Virus record (IMG/VR): IMGVR_UViG_3300022932_000009
Span: 1 to 40,579 of that record
DNA: 40,579 nt
Source of the DNA: a virus
Strand: one strand, 5' to 3'
Under the pieces are notes generated by a model. The model searched no databases. It saw only the letters and a program-made list of their open reading frames with translations, and was not told the origin of the DNA. Shown here piece by piece: positions 2,224-29,615 of the stretch. The number at the start of each line of letters is the position of its first letter. Position 1 is the first letter of the stretch. The position numbers and the translations under genes were made by a program.

Positions 2224-2287
2224 CTCTTCCAACCCTTGACCCTAACCAAGCGTCTTGCGACCGGTTTAGCTTGGCCGTTGGCGCAAG

Positions 2288-2782
2288 CTAGGCATCCCAC
2301 TGCTTGCTGCGAAAGTCAACCAACTGCGCGTGTGGAAGGTCGCGCATCCGCCAGCTGCCACCCCACACGAGGCCCTCGGCTTTGACCGCCTCGCCGTAGT
2401 CGGCCCACGCCTTCTTCGCCTCATCCGTCGACGTGCACCACATGTCTTTGACGCCCTCGCGCTCGGTGACGTGGACCTTGTCGACATCGAGCACGCAGTC
2501 GACGGCGCGCGAGGGGCTGTAGTTGTGGGCCGACGACATCGGGACGGCGTTGGTGACGATCTTCGAGCGGTCGGTGACGGCCTCGGACATCACGCGCCAG
2601 TCAGCCGACCACACGACGCGCCGGCCCTTCTCATAGAGCCGCGCTTGATCGGCTGGCGGACGATGCCCCGACAGCATCACCAGACGCCCGCCACACGCCT
2701 TGAGGACGCGCTCCATGCGAGCGGCCAGCTCGGGATGCAGCGAGGCAAGGACGGCGTTCTGCTTCGCTTGGCTGATGGTCAT
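2288..2782 (-). CDS. Endolysin, M15-family L-alanyl-D-glutamate/VanY-type peptidase
   Basis: A 164-aa zinc peptidase that should cut the peptide stems of peptidoglycan at lysis. The M15 signature is clear: SAHNYSPSRAVD at residues 84-95 gives the zinc ligands His86 and Asp95, and the late DLPH supplies His151. SGHRPPADQARLY near residues 38-50 is the usual upstream substrate loop. The length fits small T5-like endolysins. No signal peptide is visible, so a holin or other membrane protein must let it out. It is the last gene of the late operon, directly before the terminator, and overlaps its upstream neighbour by ATGA. Confidence 0.88.
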   Translation of the reverse strand: MTISQAKQNAVLASLHPELAARMERVLKACGGRLVMLSGHRPPADQARLYEKGRRVVWSADWRVMSEAVTDRSKIVTNAVPMSSAHNYSPSRAVDCVLDVDKVHVTEREGVKDMWCTSTDEAKKAWADYGEAVKAEGLVWGGSWRMRDLPHAQLVDFRSKQWDA

Positions 2783-2952
2783 GGCTCGTCTCCATAGGCT
2801 TCGCCGCGAGCCTCGTAGTCAGAAAGCCCGCTGGCCAGCAGCTGAAAGTAGCGAGCCTGCCGGCGAAGATCTTCCGTCGTGGCGTTTGCTTCGGCGTTGT
2901 CGATGGCTGCGCGCAGGGCGATGGCCATTTGTGGGTGGATTGGTTCGCTCAT
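2779..2952 (-). CDS. Small hypothetical protein of lysis cassette
   Basis: A 57-aa ORF (begins MSEPIHPQMAIALRAAIDN) is held by overlaps on both sides: its ATG lies in the stop of the 100-aa membrane protein, and its TGA overlaps the endolysin start. The product is one or two polar helices with no membrane segment. Position suggests a lysis accessory protein. No family recognised. Confidence 0.6.
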   Translation of the reverse strand: MSEPIHPQMAIALRAAIDNAEANATTEDLRRQARYFQLLASGLSDYEARGEAYGDEP

Positions 2953-3251
2953 GAGCGTTTGCCCTTCTGATCGCTGCGGTACTCGGCAAGGAACGCCTTG
3001 AAGTCGGTGATGTGGCCATCAAGCTTTCCCTCGACGTTGGCGACCTGTCCCTCGAGCTTCACGGCGCGCATGTTGTGGGGACCGGTGACCTCCTTGTCGG
3101 TGCCGTCCGCCTTCGTGCGAACCTCCTTCACTGCCTCAGCCAAGGCAGCAACCTTGACCTCGGTGACGAAGACAGTGCGCGCCACGGCGATGCAGGACGC
3201 TGCAATGGCGACAAGGACGGCGATGGCCTGCAACCACTGCAGCGGGGTCAT
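2949..3251 (-). CDS. Membrane-anchored coiled-coil protein, possible inner-membrane spanin or holin-like
   Basis: A 100-aa protein with one N-terminal membrane helix (about residues 7-27, LQAIAVLVAIAASCIAVART). A long, charged, likely coiled-coil domain follows to the end. One N-terminal helix and a periplasmic coiled coil is the layout of an inner-membrane spanin. It lies between the endolysin and two other membrane-associated genes. A lipoprotein two genes upstream could be the partner, but its form is unusual. A small holin or antiholin is the alternative. Confidence 0.6.
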   Translation of the reverse strand: MTPLQWLQAIAVLVAIAASCIAVARTVFVTEVKVAALAEAVKEVRTKADGTDKEVTGPHNMRAVKLEGQVANVEGKLDGHITDFKAFLAEYRSDQKGKRS

Positions 3252-5910: not shown

Positions 5911-6266
5911 CAGCTCTCCACGAACGTGAATGGCGTGATGTTGACGGCGGTGGCCGCAGCGCTGGCGACGACGTAGAGGTCACGGCCAACGGTGTTGAGG
6001 CCGAAAAACTCCTTGTCGCCGGGCAGCATGACGCTGCCATCGGTGGTCAAGCCTGTCGCTGTGATGCTCGGGGGCGCAGCACCGATGGGCACCAGCGTCC
6101 ACGCGATACTGGCTGACGTCGACATGTTGACCAGCTTGACGAGCACAGCACCCGTTGACCCGTTGCGGGGGAGCGGGATGATGGTTGCAGTCGTCCCAAT
6201 CGACAACGTCGTCGGGAGCGGGAGGCCTTCAAGGAGCGGGGTGCCGGTGCGGTTGATGACGGACAT
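5910..6266 (-). CDS. Small beta-rich structural protein
   Basis: A 118-aa protein made almost entirely of short beta strands with Thr, Val and Gly (TLSIGTTATIIPLP, GAVLVKLVNMSTSASIAWT). No charged helices, no membrane segment. It resembles small Ig-like or jelly-roll decoration modules of virions. It lies between the head-binding tail protein and the LamG protein and is probably a tail or fibre subunit. No family match is certain. Confidence 0.55.
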   Translation of the reverse strand: MSVINRTGTPLLEGLPLPTTLSIGTTATIIPLPRNGSTGAVLVKLVNMSTSASIAWTLVPIGAAPPSITATGLTTDGSVMLPGDKEFFGLNTVGRDLYVVASAAATAVNITPFTFVES

Positions 6267-6275
6267 GGTGAGACC

Positions 6276-7259
6276 TCAAGGAAGAACGCGGGGTGGCCCA
6301 ACTACTGCGAAAGAAAGGTCGTCGTTGACGAAAGAGTAGATTGGAAAGGAACCGGCAGTAAGAGTCGCAAGCCTCAGTCGGACAATAAGACCAGAGGTTC
6401 CGGGAGAGACATCGCCCCAGCCTACAGTTGGGACCAAGTTGCTAGACCCACCACCGGTTCCGGTGACGATCACTGCGCATCCATCCGGAACAGCGCGGTT
6501 TAGCGTGGCCTCCCATTGACCTGTGCCGATGGTGGCGACTGAGGCAACATTGAACTCGTTGCCGATTACTCCGCTATTGAGAAAACCTGACGCAAGAATG
6601 CATTTGTTGAGGTTGAGTGATGCAAGTGCGAGATCGCTGTCTGGTGACTTGTCTGTCGACGAGCCGGCGACAATGGCGCCGCGCACACTGCCGGCTGTCA
6701 GGGTTCCGCTGACGTTTGCAGTCGTCGCGTCAAGCACATCGGCGAAGACGTCAACCCGATTACCGGGGATGCCGACACTTTGAGTGCCGTCAGCCGCGGG
6801 GACAATGTTCCCAATAAACCGCGCGTTGTCGGCGATGGCAACGTTGACGCCAAGCCCGTCGTTTGTGCCGATGAAGACGCTGGCGCCGTCCTGCACTTCG
6901 ATCAGCGAGTTGGCTTCAGCGATGAGCCGCTCACCCGACGACAGCACGATGTCGCCGAGGCCCACGCGCGCCGACGACGGGATCACGTAGAGCTGCGTGT
7001 TGCCCTTGTCGCAGACGCGCATCGAGTAGTTGTCGGCGGCGAAGATGTTGCCCGGCGAGCCACTGCGCGAGTAGAACCCTGCCGTCGTGCGGAAGGGATT
7101 CGGCGCAGGGATCGTCATCGCCGCATCCCAGAAGATGGCGATGGGATTCGCGACGGGGTCCTGATTTTCCTCGCCGACGTAGACGAAGCCAGCGTCGAGG
7201 GGCTTGCCTGCGTTGTCGAAGAGGGTCGGGAAGGGTGGGAGGACAGCGACGGTAGCCAT
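6276..7259 (-). CDS. Tail protein with P22-tailspike-type head-binding domain
   Basis: A 327-aa protein. Residues 1-105 fit the P22 tailspike head-binding domain family: LFDNAGKPLDAGFVYVGE, then NPIAIFWDAAMT, TTAGFYSRSGSPGN, and NYSMRVCDKGNTQLYV. That domain docks a receptor-binding protein to the tail. The rest is only about 220 residues, with no room for the large beta-helix hydrolase of P22, so it is probably an adaptor or short fibre tip. The DNA for the C-terminal third (about 6300-6640) is visibly less GC-rich than its surroundings, consistent with exchange of the receptor-binding tip. Confidence 0.8.
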   Translation of the reverse strand: MATVAVLPPFPTLFDNAGKPLDAGFVYVGEENQDPVANPIAIFWDAAMTIPAPNPFRTTAGFYSRSGSPGNIFAADNYSMRVCDKGNTQLYVIPSSARVGLGDIVLSSGERLIAEANSLIEVQDGASVFIGTNDGLGVNVAIADNARFIGNIVPAADGTQSVGIPGNRVDVFADVLDATTANVSGTLTAGSVRGAIVAGSSTDKSPDSDLALASLNLNKCILASGFLNSGVIGNEFNVASVATIGTGQWEATLNRAVPDGCAVIVTGTGGGSSNLVPTVGWGDVSPGTSGLIVRLRLATLTAGSFPIYSFVNDDLSFAVVGPPRVLP

Positions 7260-10200
7260 TCAGCGGGCCTCTCTGGTGACGGCTTCGGTCGTCGGACCTC
7301 GAGCCCCTTGAATCGCTGCCATGACCCACTGCTCCAGCGCCTTGGGCTCGCGCGACAGCATGGCAGCCTTTGCCCAATCGCGGAAGGGCTTGGATGCGAT
7401 GACAGCGCGGACAACCTCTTTCGAGGGCGCGGCTTTGGTGGCGAGCTCGACAGCCAGCGTCTTGAACTCGGGGGACACCAGCAGCTGGCCAGCCTTGGCG
7501 ATCTGCTCCTCCCCGCCGCCTGCGATCTTCGACAGGATGCTGGCCGCAACCTCGCCGCCAACAGCGGCGCCAGCAGGGCCGCCAACAGCAGCACCGCCAG
7601 CGACACCGACAGCTCGAGCAGCGCGCTGGCCAAGAGGCCCGTTGATGACCGCGCCCACGAGGTTCTCAGCGGCGAGGTTATCGAGGAAGTCTTGATTTGC
7701 CTTGCCGGTCGTCTTCACGTTGGCGCGGGCCTGCGTGATGCGCTTGCTGATCTCGTACACGTCACGAAGCACAGCCGCGCGCTTCGGCCCGAGGGCCTGG
7801 TCGACGGTCTTGTAGATGGCCTCGTTGCCGGGCGCACGGAGCCCCTGGTACAGCTTGGAGAACTCGGCAAACCCGAAGCCAGCTTCACCGCCAGCCGCCC
7901 CACGAGTGGCGCGCGACATCGACGACAGGGCGGTCATGATGACATCGCCCTGCATCTCCTTCGGCACGACCTTGAGCAGCTGGTTCAGCCGCTTGACGTC
8001 GCCCTTGCTCGCCCCACGAATGGCGTTCTGCATGAGGGCAGCGACGCTACCGTCGCCCTCTTTGCCGAAGGTCTTGACGATGCGCTCCTCGAGGCCCTTC
8101 TGCTTGGCTGTCAGCTGGTTGGCGAGTCGGGCCTGTTGGCGGAGCTCGGCGCCACCGAGGCGCTCGATGTTGGCCAGCTGGTCGTCAGCCATCGCCCCAT
8201 AGAGACGCTTGAGGATGCGATCGTCCATCGACGCATACGGAGACTCTTGGCGAGCAAGCGCCTTGCCGATGAGCGCCTTTTGCTCACGCATAGCCTCGTA
8301 GGTGGCCTTCGGGTTCGTCGCCAGCTTCAGCAGCTTCTGCTCAATGGGGTTGAGCAGGGATACGTCGCCGCCAAGGTCGGTCACGCGCTCCTGCAGCGCC
8401 GCGCTCACCTTGTCGAGCCGGACGGGGGACGCTGGTTTGATGGCCTCGTCGACCTTCTGGTACAGCTTCGACGCCTGCGCCTTGAGCTCACCCTGCGTCG
8501 ACTGGAGCGACGAGAGCACGCGGTCAGAGATGGCGCCGGGTGATGCATCGCCACCGAGCTCGCGCACGAGGTCATCAGTCTGCTTGACCGCAGCTTCCAT
8601 GCTGTCGGCGAACGCGGTCTCGGCAGCCGTGCCAGACTTGCTGCGCAGCGACCCGATGATGGACTGCATCTGCTTGCTGTCGGCCAGCACGTCGACGGGC
8701 AGCTCGAGCCCAAGTCGCTCAGCCGCCGCCACGGCAGCCGGGTTGACCTCAAGCTGTTGAGCAAGGGCGCGCTTGGCAGCCTCAGCCGCTTCACCGGTGC
8801 CGCCCGCCGCCTTGAAGAGTGCAGGCAGGTCAACGGCAGGGGCCGCAGCAGGAGCTGCAGCAGCTGGAGCAACCGATGGTGCCGCAGCACTCGCAGGCGG
8901 AGGCACCACCTTGGTGACGTCGTCGACAGCGCCAACGGGTGGCGGGACAACCTTCGTCACGTCATCGACAGGGGCGGCGGCTGCGCGCACGGCAGCAGCG
9001 GCAGGGTCGTCGACGATGGTTGAGGCGGCATCGGTTGCGGCGCCAGCCAGCTGGCGGGTCGTCGAGCCGGGGACGGCGTCGAGCAGGGCGTTGGCAGCAC
9101 CACGGCTGCCGCGTGCGGCCGCGCCGAGAATAGGGGCAGCGAGAGGAGCGGCGCCAGCGAGGGCGATATCCCCGGGATCAAACGAGCCACCGGCCACAGA
9201 CTGCCCGCCCTCCACGAGAGCTTGCGTGGCAGCGCCCTTGCCAACCTGTGCAGCGACGCTCCCACCACCAGACGCCAGCGCCCACAACGCGTTCACGCCA
9301 AAGCGCGGGACATCGCTGGCGGTCAAACCCGGCGTGACGACGAACTCCTTGCCGGCCTTGGGCGAGAAGGCAAAAAGATTGCCCTTCTCGTCGGTGCGGA
9401 CTTTGACGCCCGGGATGTTTGCCGAGAGGACCTGCAGCGCTTCCTTCGGGTTCGCTGACAACGCAGCGACGTTCGTCAGCGTGGACAGGTCTTCCCACTC
9501 GGGAATCTTCGACCAGTCCTCAGCGGCTTGCGTCTCGGGTGTCTTGCGGTCGTTGCCGGTGATCGCGTTGCCAACGGCGTCCAATGCACGTCCCGGCGCC
9601 GAGATGGCGCGGTCAAGCGTCGTCGGTGCAGCAGTCTCGCCCAGTTTGAAGCCATCGGGGACGGTGACCCCGCCATCCTTCACGTACTGCTCAAACTTGC
9701 GGCGCTGCTCTTCTGGCATCGTGCCATCGGCGTACGCGGCGAGCGTCTTGGGCCCGGCCGCGACAGGACCCTCGGGCTCGCCAGCCGAGGCAGGAGACGC
9801 GACGGGACCCGGCGTCGGCGACGTCATGGTCGCCATCGCCGCGGACTCACCTGCCGCCACAGGCTGGGCTGTGTCGGGCGAGGCCATCGTCTGCTCTGGC
9901 TCGACGCTCTGCTCTGTCCCGTAGTCGGTCGAGGGTACGGCAGGAGTCGGCTGCGCTGGCGCCCGCGGGTCAGTCATGCCGGACGCGCTACGATTGCCCA
10001 CAGGGCGCGTCATCGACGTGCCTGAGGCGCTGCGCTGGCCGGTCATCTGCGGGGCAGCAGCAGGCGCTACTGGACGATTGCCGAGGTAGCTGCCATCAGC
10101 CGCGCGCGTGCCGAGGGCGCGAGAGGCGAACGTCGTCGTGGCCTTGTTCCACTTCGCTCGGTCAGCGCCGCTGTGCAACTCGGCAATGGCCTTGGATGCA

Positions 10201-10430
10201 TCGCCGGCGTTGTCGGAGAGCGCATCCTGCAGCGCGAGGCCGGTGGCTTCGATGGTGTTGCGGCGATTCAGCTTCGCATCGATGCCGTACGCCTCACGGA
10301 CCTTGGCGCGCGCACGTCCATCGAGTTTGCCGCCTTCCGCGACGAAGCCAACAAGGGCACCGTCGGGCAGGTCAAGCTGCTTCTCGGTCGCCTTGGCCAG
10401 TTCGATGTCTTCTTGCGTCGGCTTGCTCAC
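7260..10430 (-). CDS. Large internal virion (ejection) protein
   Basis: A 1056-aa protein, the largest in the genome. It starts with GTG (10428-10430) overlapping the previous stop. The N-terminus is helical. Residues about 480-560 are a low-complexity Ala/Pro linker in which VDDVTKVVPPP occurs twice. The middle is long and helical. Near residues 940-990 there is a Gly/Ala-rich segment (GVAGGAAVGGPAGAAVGGEV) that could insert in a membrane. Size, position last in the ejection-protein block, and composition match P22 gp16-type proteins that are injected with the DNA. No transglycosylase or protease motif found. Confidence 0.65.
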   Translation of the reverse strand: MSKPTQEDIELAKATEKQLDLPDGALVGFVAEGGKLDGRARAKVREAYGIDAKLNRRNTIEATGLALQDALSDNAGDASKAIAELHSGADRAKWNKATTTFASRALGTRAADGSYLGNRPVAPAAAPQMTGQRSASGTSMTRPVGNRSASGMTDPRAPAQPTPAVPSTDYGTEQSVEPEQTMASPDTAQPVAAGESAAMATMTSPTPGPVASPASAGEPEGPVAAGPKTLAAYADGTMPEEQRRKFEQYVKDGGVTVPDGFKLGETAAPTTLDRAISAPGRALDAVGNAITGNDRKTPETQAAEDWSKIPEWEDLSTLTNVAALSANPKEALQVLSANIPGVKVRTDEKGNLFAFSPKAGKEFVVTPGLTASDVPRFGVNALWALASGGGSVAAQVGKGAATQALVEGGQSVAGGSFDPGDIALAGAAPLAAPILGAAARGSRGAANALLDAVPGSTTRQLAGAATDAASTIVDDPAAAAVRAAAAPVDDVTKVVPPPVGAVDDVTKVVPPPASAAAPSVAPAAAAPAAAPAVDLPALFKAAGGTGEAAEAAKRALAQQLEVNPAAVAAAERLGLELPVDVLADSKQMQSIIGSLRSKSGTAAETAFADSMEAAVKQTDDLVRELGGDASPGAISDRVLSSLQSTQGELKAQASKLYQKVDEAIKPASPVRLDKVSAALQERVTDLGGDVSLLNPIEQKLLKLATNPKATYEAMREQKALIGKALARQESPYASMDDRILKRLYGAMADDQLANIERLGGAELRQQARLANQLTAKQKGLEERIVKTFGKEGDGSVAALMQNAIRGASKGDVKRLNQLLKVVPKEMQGDVIMTALSSMSRATRGAAGGEAGFGFAEFSKLYQGLRAPGNEAIYKTVDQALGPKRAAVLRDVYEISKRITQARANVKTTGKANQDFLDNLAAENLVGAVINGPLGQRAARAVGVAGGAAVGGPAGAAVGGEVAASILSKIAGGGEEQIAKAGQLLVSPEFKTLAVELATKAAPSKEVVRAVIASKPFRDWAKAAMLSREPKALEQWVMAAIQGARGPTTEAVTREAR

Positions 10431-11821
10431 TGGTTGAACCCGTCGGTGATGGCGTTGGCAGCAGCGGCACGGGCTTCAGGGGCGGTAGTCTTCGCGGCAA
10501 CGGTCGCACGCTCGCTGGCCTGCTCGAAGGTCTCACCGGCACGAACCGGCACACCGTTGATGAGCATGTCGCCGCGAGCAGGGCCGAGCCCCTGATTCTT
10601 GTAGAGGTACTCCGACTCGACACGCTTCTGTTTCTCGACGGCGCGCTGTACACGGGCCGACGCCTCGAGAAAGCCGGCAATGGCTGACGGCGCTGCGTTC
10701 TCGCTCGGGATGCCGCCTTTGACGAGGGCGATGTCGGTGTCGCTTGCGGCGCCGGGAGGAAGGTTCGCCGTGACGAGAGTCGCCGTCAGCGCCTTATGCT
10801 GCTTGCGCATGGCAGAAACGTCGTCCTCGAAGCCGGTGAACGCCTTCACGCCCTCTTGAAACCAAGCACGCGCGCCAGACGACGAAAGGTTGCCGGTGCG
10901 GTCGTAGTCGCGAAACTTCTTTGCGAGGTCTTCAGCGGACTGCGCCTGTAGCTTCGCAGCGACGCCATCACGAATGGCGGCATCGGCATCTTTGCGCACG
11001 GCGTCAGGCAGCTTGCCGACTGTCGCCTCGAGCTCGGACGCGCGTGCCAGTTGGTCGGCAACCATCTTTTCGCGGTCGAGGGCAAGGCGGTCAGCATCGT
11101 TTTTCGTCTGCGCGTAGAGGCGGTTCGTCTGCGCCTTGGTGTACCCGAGGTCAGCGAGCGCCTTGTCGTTGGCAAAGCGGGCATCCGTCGCAGCCTTCGA
11201 CGCCTTCGCTTTCGCCTCGTCAGAGGTCGCAGCGATGGTCGACGACGTCTCGTACGTCTTCGAGTAGTTCTCAGGCCCCATCGTCGACGCGAGGAAGCCG
11301 CCAAGAGTCAACGTCGCGACGTCCTTGTTGGCCTCGACGTTCTTCGCTGTGTCCTCGAGTGCTTTGGCGCGGTCAGGCATCCCGCTGTTTTCGTACCCGA
11401 CAGCAGCCTCGCGAAGGATCTTCGCGGCAGTCTCGGGGTGGCCAGAGAGCTGTGCGGCATGCGCGCGCTGGGCGAGCGACTGGTATGACTGCTTCTCTTG
11501 GTCGTTGAGTGCGGTGTACGCCTTCGTCAACCCATCAGCCATCGACGGGTACTTGACGATGAGGGCTGCCGTCTTCTGTGCCGTCGGGCTCTTCGCCGCT
11601 TCGATGAAGTCAGCCTGCTGCTGTGCACGAGCTGCCGCTTCCTCTGCTGCCTTCTGCGCCGCGAGCTTGGAGGCGGCGTCCTGCGTAGCGATGAGACGCG
11701 CACTGGCGGCCCTCGTGTCCGCTGCTTGACGCAGACCTATGCCGTCCTGCAGGCCCTGTGAGAACTGGTCGCTGACTTGTGAGGGCGGCACCATGCCGAG
11801 GGAGTAGTCGGGGATTGCCAT
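10427..11821 (-). CDS. Ejection protein (P22 gp20-like by position)
   Basis: A 464-aa protein starting MAIPDYSLGMVPPSQVSDQF. It is dominated by Ala, Glu, Gln and Lys helices and coiled coil (ASKLAAQKAAEEAAARAQQQ and onward), as expected for internal virion proteins that pass through the portal. I chose the ATG at 11821, which shares one base with the upstream TGA; the longer frame reading enters the upstream gene. It lies between a Gly/Gln-rich ejection protein and the large 1056-aa one, the same order as P22 gp7-gp20-gp16. The homology is by position and composition only. Confidence 0.62.
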   Translation of the reverse strand: MAIPDYSLGMVPPSQVSDQFSQGLQDGIGLRQAADTRAASARLIATQDAASKLAAQKAAEEAAARAQQQADFIEAAKSPTAQKTAALIVKYPSMADGLTKAYTALNDQEKQSYQSLAQRAHAAQLSGHPETAAKILREAAVGYENSGMPDRAKALEDTAKNVEANKDVATLTLGGFLASTMGPENYSKTYETSSTIAATSDEAKAKASKAATDARFANDKALADLGYTKAQTNRLYAQTKNDADRLALDREKMVADQLARASELEATVGKLPDAVRKDADAAIRDGVAAKLQAQSAEDLAKKFRDYDRTGNLSSSGARAWFQEGVKAFTGFEDDVSAMRKQHKALTATLVTANLPPGAASDTDIALVKGGIPSENAAPSAIAGFLEASARVQRAVEKQKRVESEYLYKNQGLGPARGDMLINGVPVRAGETFEQASERATVAAKTTAPEARAAAANAITDGFNQ

Positions 11822-12552
11822 CAGAAGCCGCCCGCGATGGTGCCAATACCCTTGTTGATGGAGCCAGCTGCAGACTGCAGGCCTTGGTTCCACGCGCGAC
11901 CCTGCGCGATGTAGCTGTTGGCGTTGCTGGCACCGAGCTGGCCAAGGGTGTTGCTCATCATGCCGGCGCCTTGAATCGACGTAGCGGCCTGTCCAGCAGC
12001 AGCACCCTGCCCGAGCTGGGCAATGCCGCCAGCAGCGCTCTGACCGGCCCCTGCGAGCCCACCGAGCCTGCCGTACTGGTCGTTGATCAGCTGGTTGAGG
12101 ATGGCAGGGCGCAGCTGGGCAAGCGCGCCCTGCGTGTCGCCGCCACGAAGCCCACCCGTCGCTGACTGGTTCTGGAGCAGCGCGGTCTCAGCCTGCTTGT
12201 ACATCTCAGCGAAGGCAGGCGAGTTCGCGAGCTGGTCCTGCGCGGCCTTCTGCGCCTCGGGGCCGTCGAGGCCAGCAAGGGCACGCTGCATCCCGAGCGC
12301 GTCAGTGCCGGCCTGCTGGTACTGGCCCAAGCCACCGAGGCCACCAAGACCCGCCTGTGCGTAGGGGGAGTTGTCGGCGCGCGCCTGATCCACAGCAGAC
12401 TGCTGCTGCTGCCGGTCGAGCGCGGCCTGTTCGGCGAATGCCTGGCGACCCTGCTCGGCGCTGTTGGCCTCAATGGCGGCACCAGCAATGCCCGCACCCG
12501 CCGAGAGCAGAGCACCGGCACCAACAGCAACTGAAACACCAACACCGCTCAT
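11821..12552 (-). CDS. Ejection / DNA-transfer protein (P22 gp7-like by position)
   Basis: A 243-aa protein. The N-terminus is a hydrophobic Gly/Ala stretch (SVAVGAGALLSAGAGIAGAA, about residues 7-26). Gln-rich helix (DRQQQQSAVDQARAD) and Gly/Ala/Leu repeats follow (LGGLGGLGQYQQAG and onward). This matches small phage DNA-transfer proteins that have an N-terminal membrane-active helix. It begins the three-gene ejection block just downstream of the cupin-SET gene, with which it overlaps by ATGA. Confidence 0.65.
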   Translation of the reverse strand: MSGVGVSVAVGAGALLSAGAGIAGAAIEANSAEQGRQAFAEQAALDRQQQQSAVDQARADNSPYAQAGLGGLGGLGQYQQAGTDALGMQRALAGLDGPEAQKAAQDQLANSPAFAEMYKQAETALLQNQSATGGLRGGDTQGALAQLRPAILNQLINDQYGRLGGLAGAGQSAAGGIAQLGQGAAAGQAATSIQGAGMMSNTLGQLGASNANSYIAQGRAWNQGLQSAAGSINKGIGTIAGGF

Positions 12553-13385
12553 GAGTCACCTCGAGGTACGTGGACACCGGACAACGCCACGGCTTGGCGG
12601 TAGTCGACGGTGATTTCCTCGCCTCGGCTGCCACCGACACAGCCGGCGATGGCCCTCAAAGCAACGAGGTCCATATCACCGTTGGCAAGCAACGCAAAGC
12701 GGGCATTCGGATTGTGGCTGTGGTTCGTGTAGCGGCCGGCAGGAGTGCGCCTGTCGTCAAGGCGAGCGGCGCACAGCACCTCTCCAGCCTCGGCAGGGGC
12801 CGTAAGGAACAGCCCGCGCCCCTCGATCGGGGATGACCGGACGGTCACGCGCACGGCATCGGCAGGTGGGAAGTCGACGAGATCGACGTCTGCCTCCGAC
12901 ACCTCACGGATGAACGCGGCATCACAGCCCGTGGCGCGCTCGTAGTCGGCACAGAAGGCCACGTAGTCGTCGCGCTCTGGTTGGCGCAACGCCGCATGCA
13001 ACGCCTGCACACTCTCCTGCCGCGCATCCATCTCGTCGTCGTCAAATAGCAGCGCCTCCAGCTTGTCGATGTCGCGCTCTTCGGTGGCGTAGATGTTCAA
13101 CCACACCGTGTCGGCGACGATGCGCGCGATCTTGCGGCCGGGTGGGGCGGTGAAAGTCTGCGGGGCAACGACAGTGCGGATGACGTTGCCAGCTTCATCG
13201 ACGAGGTCGAGGATGCCTGACAGCATGAGGTTGAGGTGCTCGCCACGGTGTCGACGCCCGACGACCAGCGCGCCAGCCGGCATCGACACCTCACGCATGT
13301 ACACACCGGGCCCGAAGCGGTGCACGACGGGGCAAGGCACCTCTTGGGCCAGCAACGACAGCGATTGCGAGATGGGTACGAGCAT
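12549..13385 (-). CDS. Cupin-SET domain fusion protein in virion operon
   Basis: A 278-aa protein of two domains. Residues about 20-105 look like a cupin-type beta barrel (RRHRGEHLNLMLSGILDLVD and later strands). Residues about 180-265 are a compact SET domain: GRG at 189-191 (SET-N), NHSHNPNA around 221-228 (the RxxNHS-PN signature) and GEEITVDY around 255-262 (closing Tyr motif). SET domains are usually S-adenosylmethionine-dependent lysine methyltransferases. I chose ATG at 13385, sharing one base with the upstream TGA; a TTG one codon earlier is possible. It lies between a gp10-region structural gene and the ejection proteins, so it may modify or travel in the virion. Substrate unknown. 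Confidence 0.8.
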   Translation of the reverse strand: MLVPISQSLSLLAQEVPCPVVHRFGPGVYMREVSMPAGALVVGRRHRGEHLNLMLSGILDLVDEAGNVIRTVVAPQTFTAPPGRKIARIVADTVWLNIYATEERDIDKLEALLFDDDEMDARQESVQALHAALRQPERDDYVAFCADYERATGCDAAFIREVSEADVDLVDFPPADAVRVTVRSSPIEGRGLFLTAPAEAGEVLCAARLDDRRTPAGRYTNHSHNPNARFALLANGDMDLVALRAIAGCVGGSRGEEITVDYRQAVALSGVHVPRGDS

Positions 13386-13903
13386 CAACCCACCTTGCGA
13401 ACAGAGACAAACGACCCGCCCAGAAGCAAGGCAGTTGGGCCGCCGACATTTTCGATCTTGAACCCCAAAGAACCAGCCTTCGTCACTGTGATGAGGGCCG
13501 TGGTCTCAACCAGAGCCTGCGCGCTTGATGAGTCGACAGTGATCTCCGACGACGATGAGATGAGCTGCGAGTACCAGTATACGGGTATGACTTTGTCGTC
13601 GACCCTGATCGCCATCAGCGTGTCGACGACGACAGCAGTGTTGGCAGTCGTGATGCGCACATCGCCGGCTGCACCTGTATCCACCATGATGGTCGACCGC
13701 ACCTCGTAAACGCCGGCCTCAACAGCAACCGCCAGCGTGATGGGGGTCGCAAGCGCGTCGTCGGCAGCCTGTGACGCAGATGCCGGCGCAATGAGCAGCG
13801 TCACCGCCGAGAACAACAGTTCCAGCTGACGGATCGACTCGGCATCGGTGTGCGCGATGACGGCGAGCTGGTTGCGCGTGAGCTGCAGTCTTTGGATGGC
13901 CAT
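13385..13903 (-). CDS. Structural protein of head/tail completion region
   Basis: A 172-aa protein. The first 60 residues are helical and hydrophobic at the end (LFSAVTLLIAPASASQAADD). The rest is beta-rich (GVYEVRSTIMVDTGAAGDV, then SLGFKIENVGGPTALLLGG). It overlaps the gp10-like gene upstream. In P22 this slot holds the tail needle gp26, but I see no long trimeric coiled coil, so it is not a clear needle. A small neck or decoration protein is as likely. Confidence 0.55.
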   Translation of the reverse strand: MAIQRLQLTRNQLAVIAHTDAESIRQLELLFSAVTLLIAPASASQAADDALATPITLAVAVEAGVYEVRSTIMVDTGAAGDVRITTANTAVVVDTLMAIRVDDKVIPVYWYSQLISSSSEITVDSSSAQALVETTALITVTKAGSLGFKIENVGGPTALLLGGSFVSVRKVG

Positions 13904-15315
13904 CAGAATGCACTCCCGGTGATTTGAGCCTCGAGGCGGGTGAACGAGATGTGCGCGTCAGACGTCCCGCGAAAACGCTGGATGCGCCAGTGCAACATGC
14001 TCCCCTGCTTGAACCACACGAGCCGCTTCTGACGCTGGCCGATCTTGCCAGCTGGGATGCTCTTCTCGAGGCTCCACTCCATTCCGTCGAGGGAGTAGCT
14101 CGTCGAGATGACAGGGTCCTTGCCGAGCAGCACGCGGCCAGTGAGTCCAACGAGCTCGAGCTCGGAGATGACCGCACCGCGTCCGTCGTTGTAGATGATG
14201 CTCGTGCCAAACTCCCACCGCACCGGCTGACCGTAGTGGGACGACACGGACTGCGTGAGGTACCCGACGACGAACGACGTCGGGTCAGCGCTGTTCCACC
14301 GATCGAAGCACCACACGAAGAAGCGCGCACGGTAGATGCTCATCCCCTCGAGGGTCGACACCAGGGTGAACCATACCTGCGCGCCGAGAGCCTGTGACGC
14401 GGCCGCATCGTAGACGAGGGTGCGGTCCAGCAGGTGGATGTAGAGATGCTGGTGTGCGTTGTCGTTGCGAGTCTCGACGACGACCTGCGACAGCTCGTCT
14501 TCCGTGAACGACGCCAACACGCGATCCACTTCGACGGTGGAGATCTTCTGGGCCTGCGCGTTCACTCCGAGGTAGACGCCCGGTGCCTCGTTGTAGCCAC
14601 TGCCCACGAAGGCCAGCGTCTCGAGGAAGATGCAGCAGGCGTCCTTGCCAATGGCGCCCTTGGTGATCTTCGCACCAGCGATGCGGGCGAACGGTGCCCC
14701 GCTCCCGCCGACGTTGGCCAGCGTCTCGATGCTGTTGCGGTTGACGGCGAGCAGTTCGTTGCGGAGGCGAGCCAGTGCCACGACGGGGTCAGGGTCAGAC
14801 TCGCTGCTGACGTACTTGAACGGGTCGAACGACATCGGGTCGTTGATGTCGGAGAACGCCACGAACTCGCCATCGGTGACGGCGAAGTACCCATCGATCC
14901 ACTGAACGTCGAGGACGACACCAGCGTTCGGGTCGGTCACCGTCAGAAAGACGTTGGCGTCGGTGAGGTAGTAGAGCGTCCCGTTGCTCGCGATGGCAAG
15001 GCGGTCGAACCCGTACGAGAACGAGACCGGCACCCCGTTGTCGCCGACGTCGCCGATGACGGACGAGACCACACCGTTGACGTCGACGCTGACGAGGGAC
15101 GACCCCATCACGCGATACAGGATGCCCCGCCACTCGATGCCGCCGCGCGCAACGCCCGTGCCTTCACCCTGCCCGACAATCCCGTCAGCAGGGCGCAGGT
15201 AGCCTTTGGAGATGCCGCTGTCGGCAGGCACAGGGACCATGTTGACGGGGTACGCGATCCGCATGTCGGGACCGTTGGATGTGAAAATACCGCTGAGGAT
15301 CGGTACCTGCACCAT
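13903..15315 (-). CDS. P22 gp10-like packaged-DNA stabilisation (head completion) protein
   Basis: A 470-aa protein close in length to P22 gp10 (472 aa). The N-terminus (MVQVPILSGIFTSNGPD, then RIAYPVNMVPVPADSGISKG) and the repeated beta-propeller-like strands (FDRLAIASNGTLYYLTDAN; VQWIDGYFAVTDGEFVAFSD) are characteristic of this family. So is the C-terminal RFRGTSDAHISFTRLEAQ. In P22, gp10 forms a hexameric ring below gp4 and plugs the portal after packaging. Its position two genes after the gp4-like gene matches that order. Confidence 0.85.
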   Translation of the reverse strand: MVQVPILSGIFTSNGPDMRIAYPVNMVPVPADSGISKGYLRPADGIVGQGEGTGVARGGIEWRGILYRVMGSSLVSVDVNGVVSSVIGDVGDNGVPVSFSYGFDRLAIASNGTLYYLTDANVFLTVTDPNAGVVLDVQWIDGYFAVTDGEFVAFSDINDPMSFDPFKYVSSESDPDPVVALARLRNELLAVNRNSIETLANVGGSGAPFARIAGAKITKGAIGKDACCIFLETLAFVGSGYNEAPGVYLGVNAQAQKISTVEVDRVLASFTEDELSQVVVETRNDNAHQHLYIHLLDRTLVYDAAASQALGAQVWFTLVSTLEGMSIYRARFFVWCFDRWNSADPTSFVVGYLTQSVSSHYGQPVRWEFGTSIIYNDGRGAVISELELVGLTGRVLLGKDPVISTSYSLDGMEWSLEKSIPAGKIGQRQKRLVWFKQGSMLHWRIQRFRGTSDAHISFTRLEAQITGSAF

Positions 15316-29541: not shown

Positions 29542-29615
29542 TGCTCGGGGCTGGATTTGAACCTGCGACCTCTCCCGCAACCGGGGAGCGCTCTACCAAG
29601 CTGAGCTACCCGAGC
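29542..29615 (-). tRNA. Degenerate tRNA, anticodon position reads GUU (Asn?)
   Basis: The minus strand folds into a cloverleaf: a perfect 7-bp acceptor stem GCTCGGG/CCCGAGC, D stem GCTC/GAGC, anticodon stem CTCCC/GGGAG, and T stem with GGTTCAAATCC and one A-A mismatch. The 7-base anticodon loop is CGGTTGC, so bases 34-36 read GTT, as for tRNA-Asn. Base 33 is G, not the nearly universal T. No CCA is encoded; the next bases are AAAC. It may be a decaying or altered tRNA. It is probably cotranscribed with the 124-aa gene upstream. Confidence 0.75.

Follow-up and report, generated by a model that had tools for sequence, protein, structure and literature searches.

A gene within the virion operon of a P22-type phage encodes a fusion of a cupin-like barrel with a compact SET domain that lacks the SET-I segment; since the SAM-binding and catalytic residues are kept, the SET half is probably an active methyltransferase. 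The sequence suggests that phages carrying this protein modify one of their own proteins, or a protein of the host, during particle assembly. The gene lies in a 40,579-nucleotide stretch of viral DNA (IMG/VR record IMGVR_UViG_3300022932_000009), which is referred to here as the window.

The gene spans positions 12549–13385, as originally predicted, and it runs on the minus strand, which the prediction had not given; a plus-strand reading of the same interval in the same frame meets several stops. The predicted TGATG and ATGA couplings to the neighboring genes were both seen directly in the sequence. The surrounding operon is of the P22 type, as had been proposed, with gp4 (E = 4e-16) and gp10 matched by Pfam and the gp7-like, coat and portal proteins by PHROGs, in the order portal, coat, gp4-like, gp10-like, needle-position gene, cupin-SET gene, gp7-like and two large proteins in ejection positions. 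The gene had also been placed where P22 carries gp26/gp14; this holds for gene 14 but not for gp26, as an upstream gene for a 172-residue protein takes the needle position. A Pfam search with the 172-residue protein gave no match, and in a clustering of the extra proteins found in the gp10–gp7 interval among relatives it falls into the largest cluster. The main features are as follows.

12549..13385, minus strand: cupin-SET gene, 278 aa; ATG at 13385, stop at 12551–12549
13080..13340, minus strand: N-terminal RmlC/cupin barrel, residues about 16–102 (PHROG 12032, E = 2.5e-25; cupin Z up to 10.1)
12888..13079, minus strand: helical linker, residues 103–166 (secondary structure of the model)
12591..12872, minus strand: SET domain without SET-I, residues about 172–265 (PF00856, PDB profile, fold Z 11.2)
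12813..12821, minus strand: GRG (GxG) motif, residues 189–191 (family conservation)
12705..12725, minus strand: NHSHNPN motif, residues 221–227 (family conservation)
12600..12620, minus strand: EEITVDY motif, residues 256–262, with Tyr262 at the catalytic position (family conservation)
13383..13387, minus strand: TGATG, one-base start/stop overlap with the upstream needle-position gene (sequence)
12549..12552, minus strand: ATGA, four-base start/stop overlap with the downstream gp7-like gene (sequence)
13903..15315, minus strand: gp10-like head closure protein, Hc3/Phage_stabilise (PF11134, 1.7e-34; PHROG 578, 1e-86)
13385..13903, minus strand: 172-aa protein in the position of the P22 gp26 needle (position)
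11821..12552, minus strand: gp7-like DNA-ejection protein (PHROG 598, E = 1e-20)
10427..11893, minus strand: ejection protein in the gp20 position, similarity weak (PHROG 2534, E = 0.068)
7260..10430, minus strand: large ejection protein in the gp16 position (PHROG 6704, 3e-50, and position)

The window also contains a tRNA-Asn (GTT) gene on the minus strand at positions 29542–29615.

Pfam assigned the SET family PF00856 to the 278-residue protein with 24.7 bits (curated cut-off, 22.4; E = 3.3e-5), and PHROG 34170 matched it over its full length (residues 14–270, E = 9.2e-68), while a search of NCBIfam returned no match. A profile of 65 relatives, searched against the PDB, matched SET structures; the MLL1 SET domain was the best match (4e-11), and for the viral vSET the value was 5e-7. 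An AlphaFold2 model built on the same 65-sequence alignment reached a pLDDT of 92.6 and a pTM of 0.87; a single-sequence AlphaFold prediction gave a pLDDT of only 35. Residues 172–263 of the alignment-based model fit the MLL1 SET domain with SAH (7u5v) to 1.5 Å over 81 residues (Z 11.2, 38% identity). The second half of the protein thus resembles a small but complete version of the histone-methylating enzymes. Both checks that had been proposed for the predicted cupin-SET identity thus bear it out, the SET fold being present in the predicted structure and SET families being matched in the sensitive profile searches. The second part of the linker reappears ahead of the SET domain, as an N-terminal extension, in stand-alone SET proteins; at SET-only loci the match covers profile positions from about 151 onward. 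The window protein carries insertions of one residue (69) and four residues (149–152) that are nearly absent from its relatives.

The three SET signatures read from the sequence at the outset are all present, as IEGRGLF at residues 187–193, YTNHSHNPN at 219–227 and EEITVDY at 256–262, and profile scores place them above chance. In SET enzymes that have been studied, the GxG motif binds SAM, and the residues at the positions of Asn221 and His222 contact it. Conservation was assessed in two non-redundant sets, of 80 fused proteins and 27 stand-alone SET proteins. Gly191 and Asn221 are invariant (80/80 fused, 27/27 stand-alone), as are Gly189 and His222 among the 27 stand-alone proteins, with 77 and 79 of the 80 fused proteins, respectively; Tyr262 occurs in every gap-free sequence (79 fused, 27 stand-alone). 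Overall identity among the relatives goes down to 23%, and for this reason the conservation of the catalytic residues counts as strong.

SET-I is the typical insert between the N- and C-terminal halves of SET domains, is variable in length and usually supplies a wall of the substrate groove. It is missing from this family: the spacing from Phe193 to Gly217 is exactly 23 residues in 80/80 fused proteins and 23–27 in the stand-alone ones, and the SET-I region comprises 10 profile positions versus 45 residues in MLL1. Beside the NHS motif, Arg213, Thr214, Gly217 and Arg218 are conserved in this short form. Since SET-I is a variable region, its absence marks a variant and leaves SET membership intact; it also means that substrate binding must differ from that of the SET enzymes studied so far.

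The protein is no orphan, as its PHROG 34170 membership and a large phage family show. One scan of IMG/VR yielded 487 confirmed relatives, of which 80 were kept. In GenBank, the full protein occurs, among others, in Rhodoferax phage P26218, Pseudoalteromonas phage PH1, phage zth2-2 and Manatee Spring genomes, and one of these entries bears the name “pbcV-1 histone H3-lys 27 methyltransferase structure”. The cupin without SET appears in about 50 further phage records, and plasmid matches (Acinetobacter and Stenotrophomonas records) cover the cupin part only. Contigs L091, L093 and L094, which are phage-like and encode cupin-SET proteins, sit in Lentisphaera, Anaerolineae and Bacillota bins, host labels that may be binning errors.

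Classified by ORF, 251 loci comprised 168 fused, 40 cupin-only and 46 SET-only cases. Where the flank was sufficient, a gp7-like gene came next downstream of 137/153 fused and 29/33 cupin-only genes, and a gp10-like gene lay upstream of 97/150 and 32/37, respectively. Ejection-position genes in two loci (L006, 10138–11976; L007, 9968–11803) were deposited as “putative terL”, probably a misannotation. The two halves can also be separate adjacent genes, in the order SET, cupin, gp7-like in L239, and in the order cupin, SET, with an ATGA overlap, in L097, a Paraburkholderia ferrariae contig. Stand-alone SET proteins without SET-I (127–128 aa) adjoin GroEL or GroES/GroEL genes in L002 (1408–3459), L177 (5998–8386) and L181 (3185–5573). 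In L191, L192, L194, L197, L205 and L208 the stand-alone SET gene adjoins a GroES-like gene and lies upstream of the terminase and a portal identified by position and size; some of these loci also encode a small protein weakly similar to 2OG-Fe(II) oxygenases. The stand-alone SETs near chaperone or terminase/portal genes belong to unrelated phages.

The SET part behaves as a module. The cupin DNA of L117 (fused, 2239–3099) and L142 (cupin only, 5944–6519) is 87% identical over 465 bases; after the shared cupin, L117 runs into SET and L142 into a short tail, and both genes stop just before the start of the gp7-like gene. A cupin tree of 114 columns requires at least three changes of SET state on well-supported branches, but this tree is poorly resolved, its long branches meet, and we rely on the L117/L142 pair only. 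The constant part of the slot is thus the cupin, with SET as the exchangeable part. As SET was gained or lost between such close relatives, it is not essential for assembly there.

The reading that we tentatively favor, and which may well be correct, is that of a late, assembly-stage protein-lysine methyltransferase whose cupin docks on the assembling virion and whose substrates are likely virion or ejection proteins. The protein would be made late, alongside the needle and the ejection proteins; the cupin module would oligomerize and dock it on an assembly intermediate; and the SET domain would hold SAM through the GxG loop and Asn221-His222 and use Tyr262 for lysine methylation. The likeliest substrates would be the co-expressed ejection proteins gp7, gp20 and gp16, the needle or the coat, and the missing SET-I wall would have to be replaced by the linker helices, the cupin or the substrate complex itself. 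Given activity, a substrate among the virion proteins is slightly more likely than not.

A conserved lysine specific to SET phages was sought in gp7, gp10, gp20, gp4 and coat, and none was found; the closest candidate was coat K358 (76% vs. 50%, with Arg as the alternative), and the gp20 comparison had zero cupin-only sequences for contrast. With no such lysine in the virion neighbors, a host target stays a serious rival: the active SET enzyme would methylate a host protein, late in infection or after injection together with the ejection proteins, and the cupin would carry the enzyme or recognize its target. The kept catalytic residues suit this proposal, and the swapping of a SET cassette between close relatives beside a constant cupin is what a host-adaptive activity predicts. 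However, the gene is translationally coupled within a late virion operon and keeps its place across many phages, and we know of no host target for the protein; we consider this explanation unlikely.

That the particle reuses the SET fold without catalysis, as a structural element or a SAM sensor, is harder to sustain. SET-I is deleted in all members, the gene lies among structural genes, the domain can be lost and other beta folds have been reused in this way in phages. Yet Tyr262, Asn221, His222 and Gly191 are kept in essentially all 107 non-redundant sequences, the small stand-alone forms included, and a scaffold has no need of kept catalytic residues, which makes such a role improbable.

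The slot itself offers a further comparison. In P22, gene 14 (L252, 3912–4367) lies between the needle gene 26 and gene 7, and its product belongs to DUF2824/PHROG 651. In Mx8, p53 (L340, 28457–28864) occupies the equivalent slot before the virion structural genes p54–p57 and is annotated as “acyl-CoA N-acyltransferase”; upstream of it, p52 takes the place of gp10 and is named “amidase” in Mx8 and “head closure” in the near-identical Mx9. The gene order of ctMlz233 reads stabilization protein, acetyltransferase, structural protein. A profile of nine acyltransferase proteins from the slot matched GNAT structures (best E = 9e-5), and in a profile–profile comparison 116 columns of the P22 gp14 family could be aligned with it (E = 5.8e-5, probability 66%), while gp14 alone gave no GNAT match against Pfam and the PDB. 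P22 gp14 is probably a GNAT-fold protein; the usual acetyl-CoA motif is not obvious by eye, and gp14 may be a degenerate, non-catalytic GNAT. T7 gp13 did not match the slot GNAT profile significantly (E = 0.64), and its inclusion with the GNAT family has PMC10386132 as its sole basis. In L215, an Asp/Asn beta-hydroxylase gene (6356–6892; PF05118, E = 2e-13) directly follows the SET gene in the gp10–gp7 slot.

The occupants of the slot suggest that it tends to hold a protein-modifying enzyme. It is conceivable, although on balance doubtful, that P22-type podophages possess, just upstream of the ejection proteins, a slot dedicated to a protein-modifying enzyme, with interchangeable occupants: a GNAT (in Mx8, in Bcep22-type phages and, through descent, in P22 as gp14), cupin-SET, or SET with an Asp/Asn hydroxylase (one case). 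Virion or ejection proteins would then be chemically modified as a general step of assembly that has so far gone unnoticed.

The same comparison raises the alternative that the protein is a functional stand-in for P22 gp14, in which the cupin does the essential assembly work and methylation is accessory or fine-tuning. The slot is identical, cupin-only versions are common, and the 251 cupin/SET loci gave no GNAT or DUF2824 match in searches that included the gp14 profile. A phage L study lists gp14 among the known P22 virion components (PMC8022706). Still, the cupin-SET protein shows no sequence relation to gp14, with no match to DUF2824 in Pfam or PHROGs, and the role of gp14 itself is poorly defined, so that we regard such a stand-in role as rather implausible.

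Residues 16–102 matched RmlC-like cupins (Foldseek E = 2.6e-5; VIA Z 9.6–10.1 for several cupins). Canonical cupins carry the metal motifs G(X)5HXH(X)3-4E(X)6G and PxG(X)2H; here His50 alone is conserved in the first motif, followed by Asn52, and Lys85 stands at the position of the second-motif His. The cupin half is accordingly read as a binding or oligomerization module. In L209 (4846–5184), another small cupin-like protein, distinct from the first and with an HxH-type motif recognized by eye, is encoded upstream of the cupin-SET gene. The first approximately 110 residues match PHROG 12032 and PHROG 24280, named “short tail fiber protein” and “tail fiber adhesin”, but these families are single cupin barrels with no fiber-like sequence, a SET half is unprecedented in an adhesin and the names look like transferred annotation; the tail-fiber name was rejected, and a role as a short tail fiber or adhesin is considered very improbable.

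A literature search found no paper on a phage cupin-SET protein; the “set domain” matches in PMC9022992 and PMC10172136 concern Ig I-set and C2-set domains instead. What is already known comprises SET domains, cupins, the family as an unnamed PHROG and one SET-like GenBank name. Apparently undescribed, as far as the literature was searched, are the joining of the two domains, the SET form without SET-I, the place in the virion operon and the exchange with GNATs there.

SET enzymes are familiar mainly from eukaryotic chromatin. If the preferred reading is true, phage assembly would gain a new step, in which an enzyme methylates lysines of virion proteins, and so small a SET domain, without SET-I and with its catalysis-associated residues intact, would help to establish what a minimal SET enzyme consists of. 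Comparing the occupants of the slot also yields a testable idea about the function of P22 gp14. The existence of cultured isolates (Rhodoferax phage P26218 and Pseudoalteromonas phage PH1) makes a mass-spectrometry test straightforward.

Among known systems, the SET domains of MLL1/KMT2A and of PBCV-1 vSET share with the phage protein the fold (Z 11.2 and 9.6), the GxG, NH and EExxxDY motifs and the tyrosine at the catalytic position, whereas the phage protein has no SET-I, is fused to a cupin, is encoded in a virion operon and has a methyltransferase activity that is only predicted. The RmlC-like cupins HP0902, RPA4178 and ectoine synthase have the double-stranded beta-helix in common with its first half (Z 9.6 to 10.1); their classical His/His/Glu/His metal set is not conserved in the phage barrel, where His50, Lys85 and Trp95 are conserved instead. 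PHROG 12032, PHROG 24280 and PHA00672 share a homologous cupin barrel and the position in the operon but have no SET, and PHROG 34170, to which PHROG assigns no function, is the cupin-SET family itself. P22 gp14 (DUF2824, PF11039) and the Mx8/Bcep22-type GNAT (PHROG 4470) have a GNAT-like fold unrelated to that of the phage cupin-SET protein, yet they occupy the same place between gp10/needle and gp7 and, like it, may be modifying enzymes.
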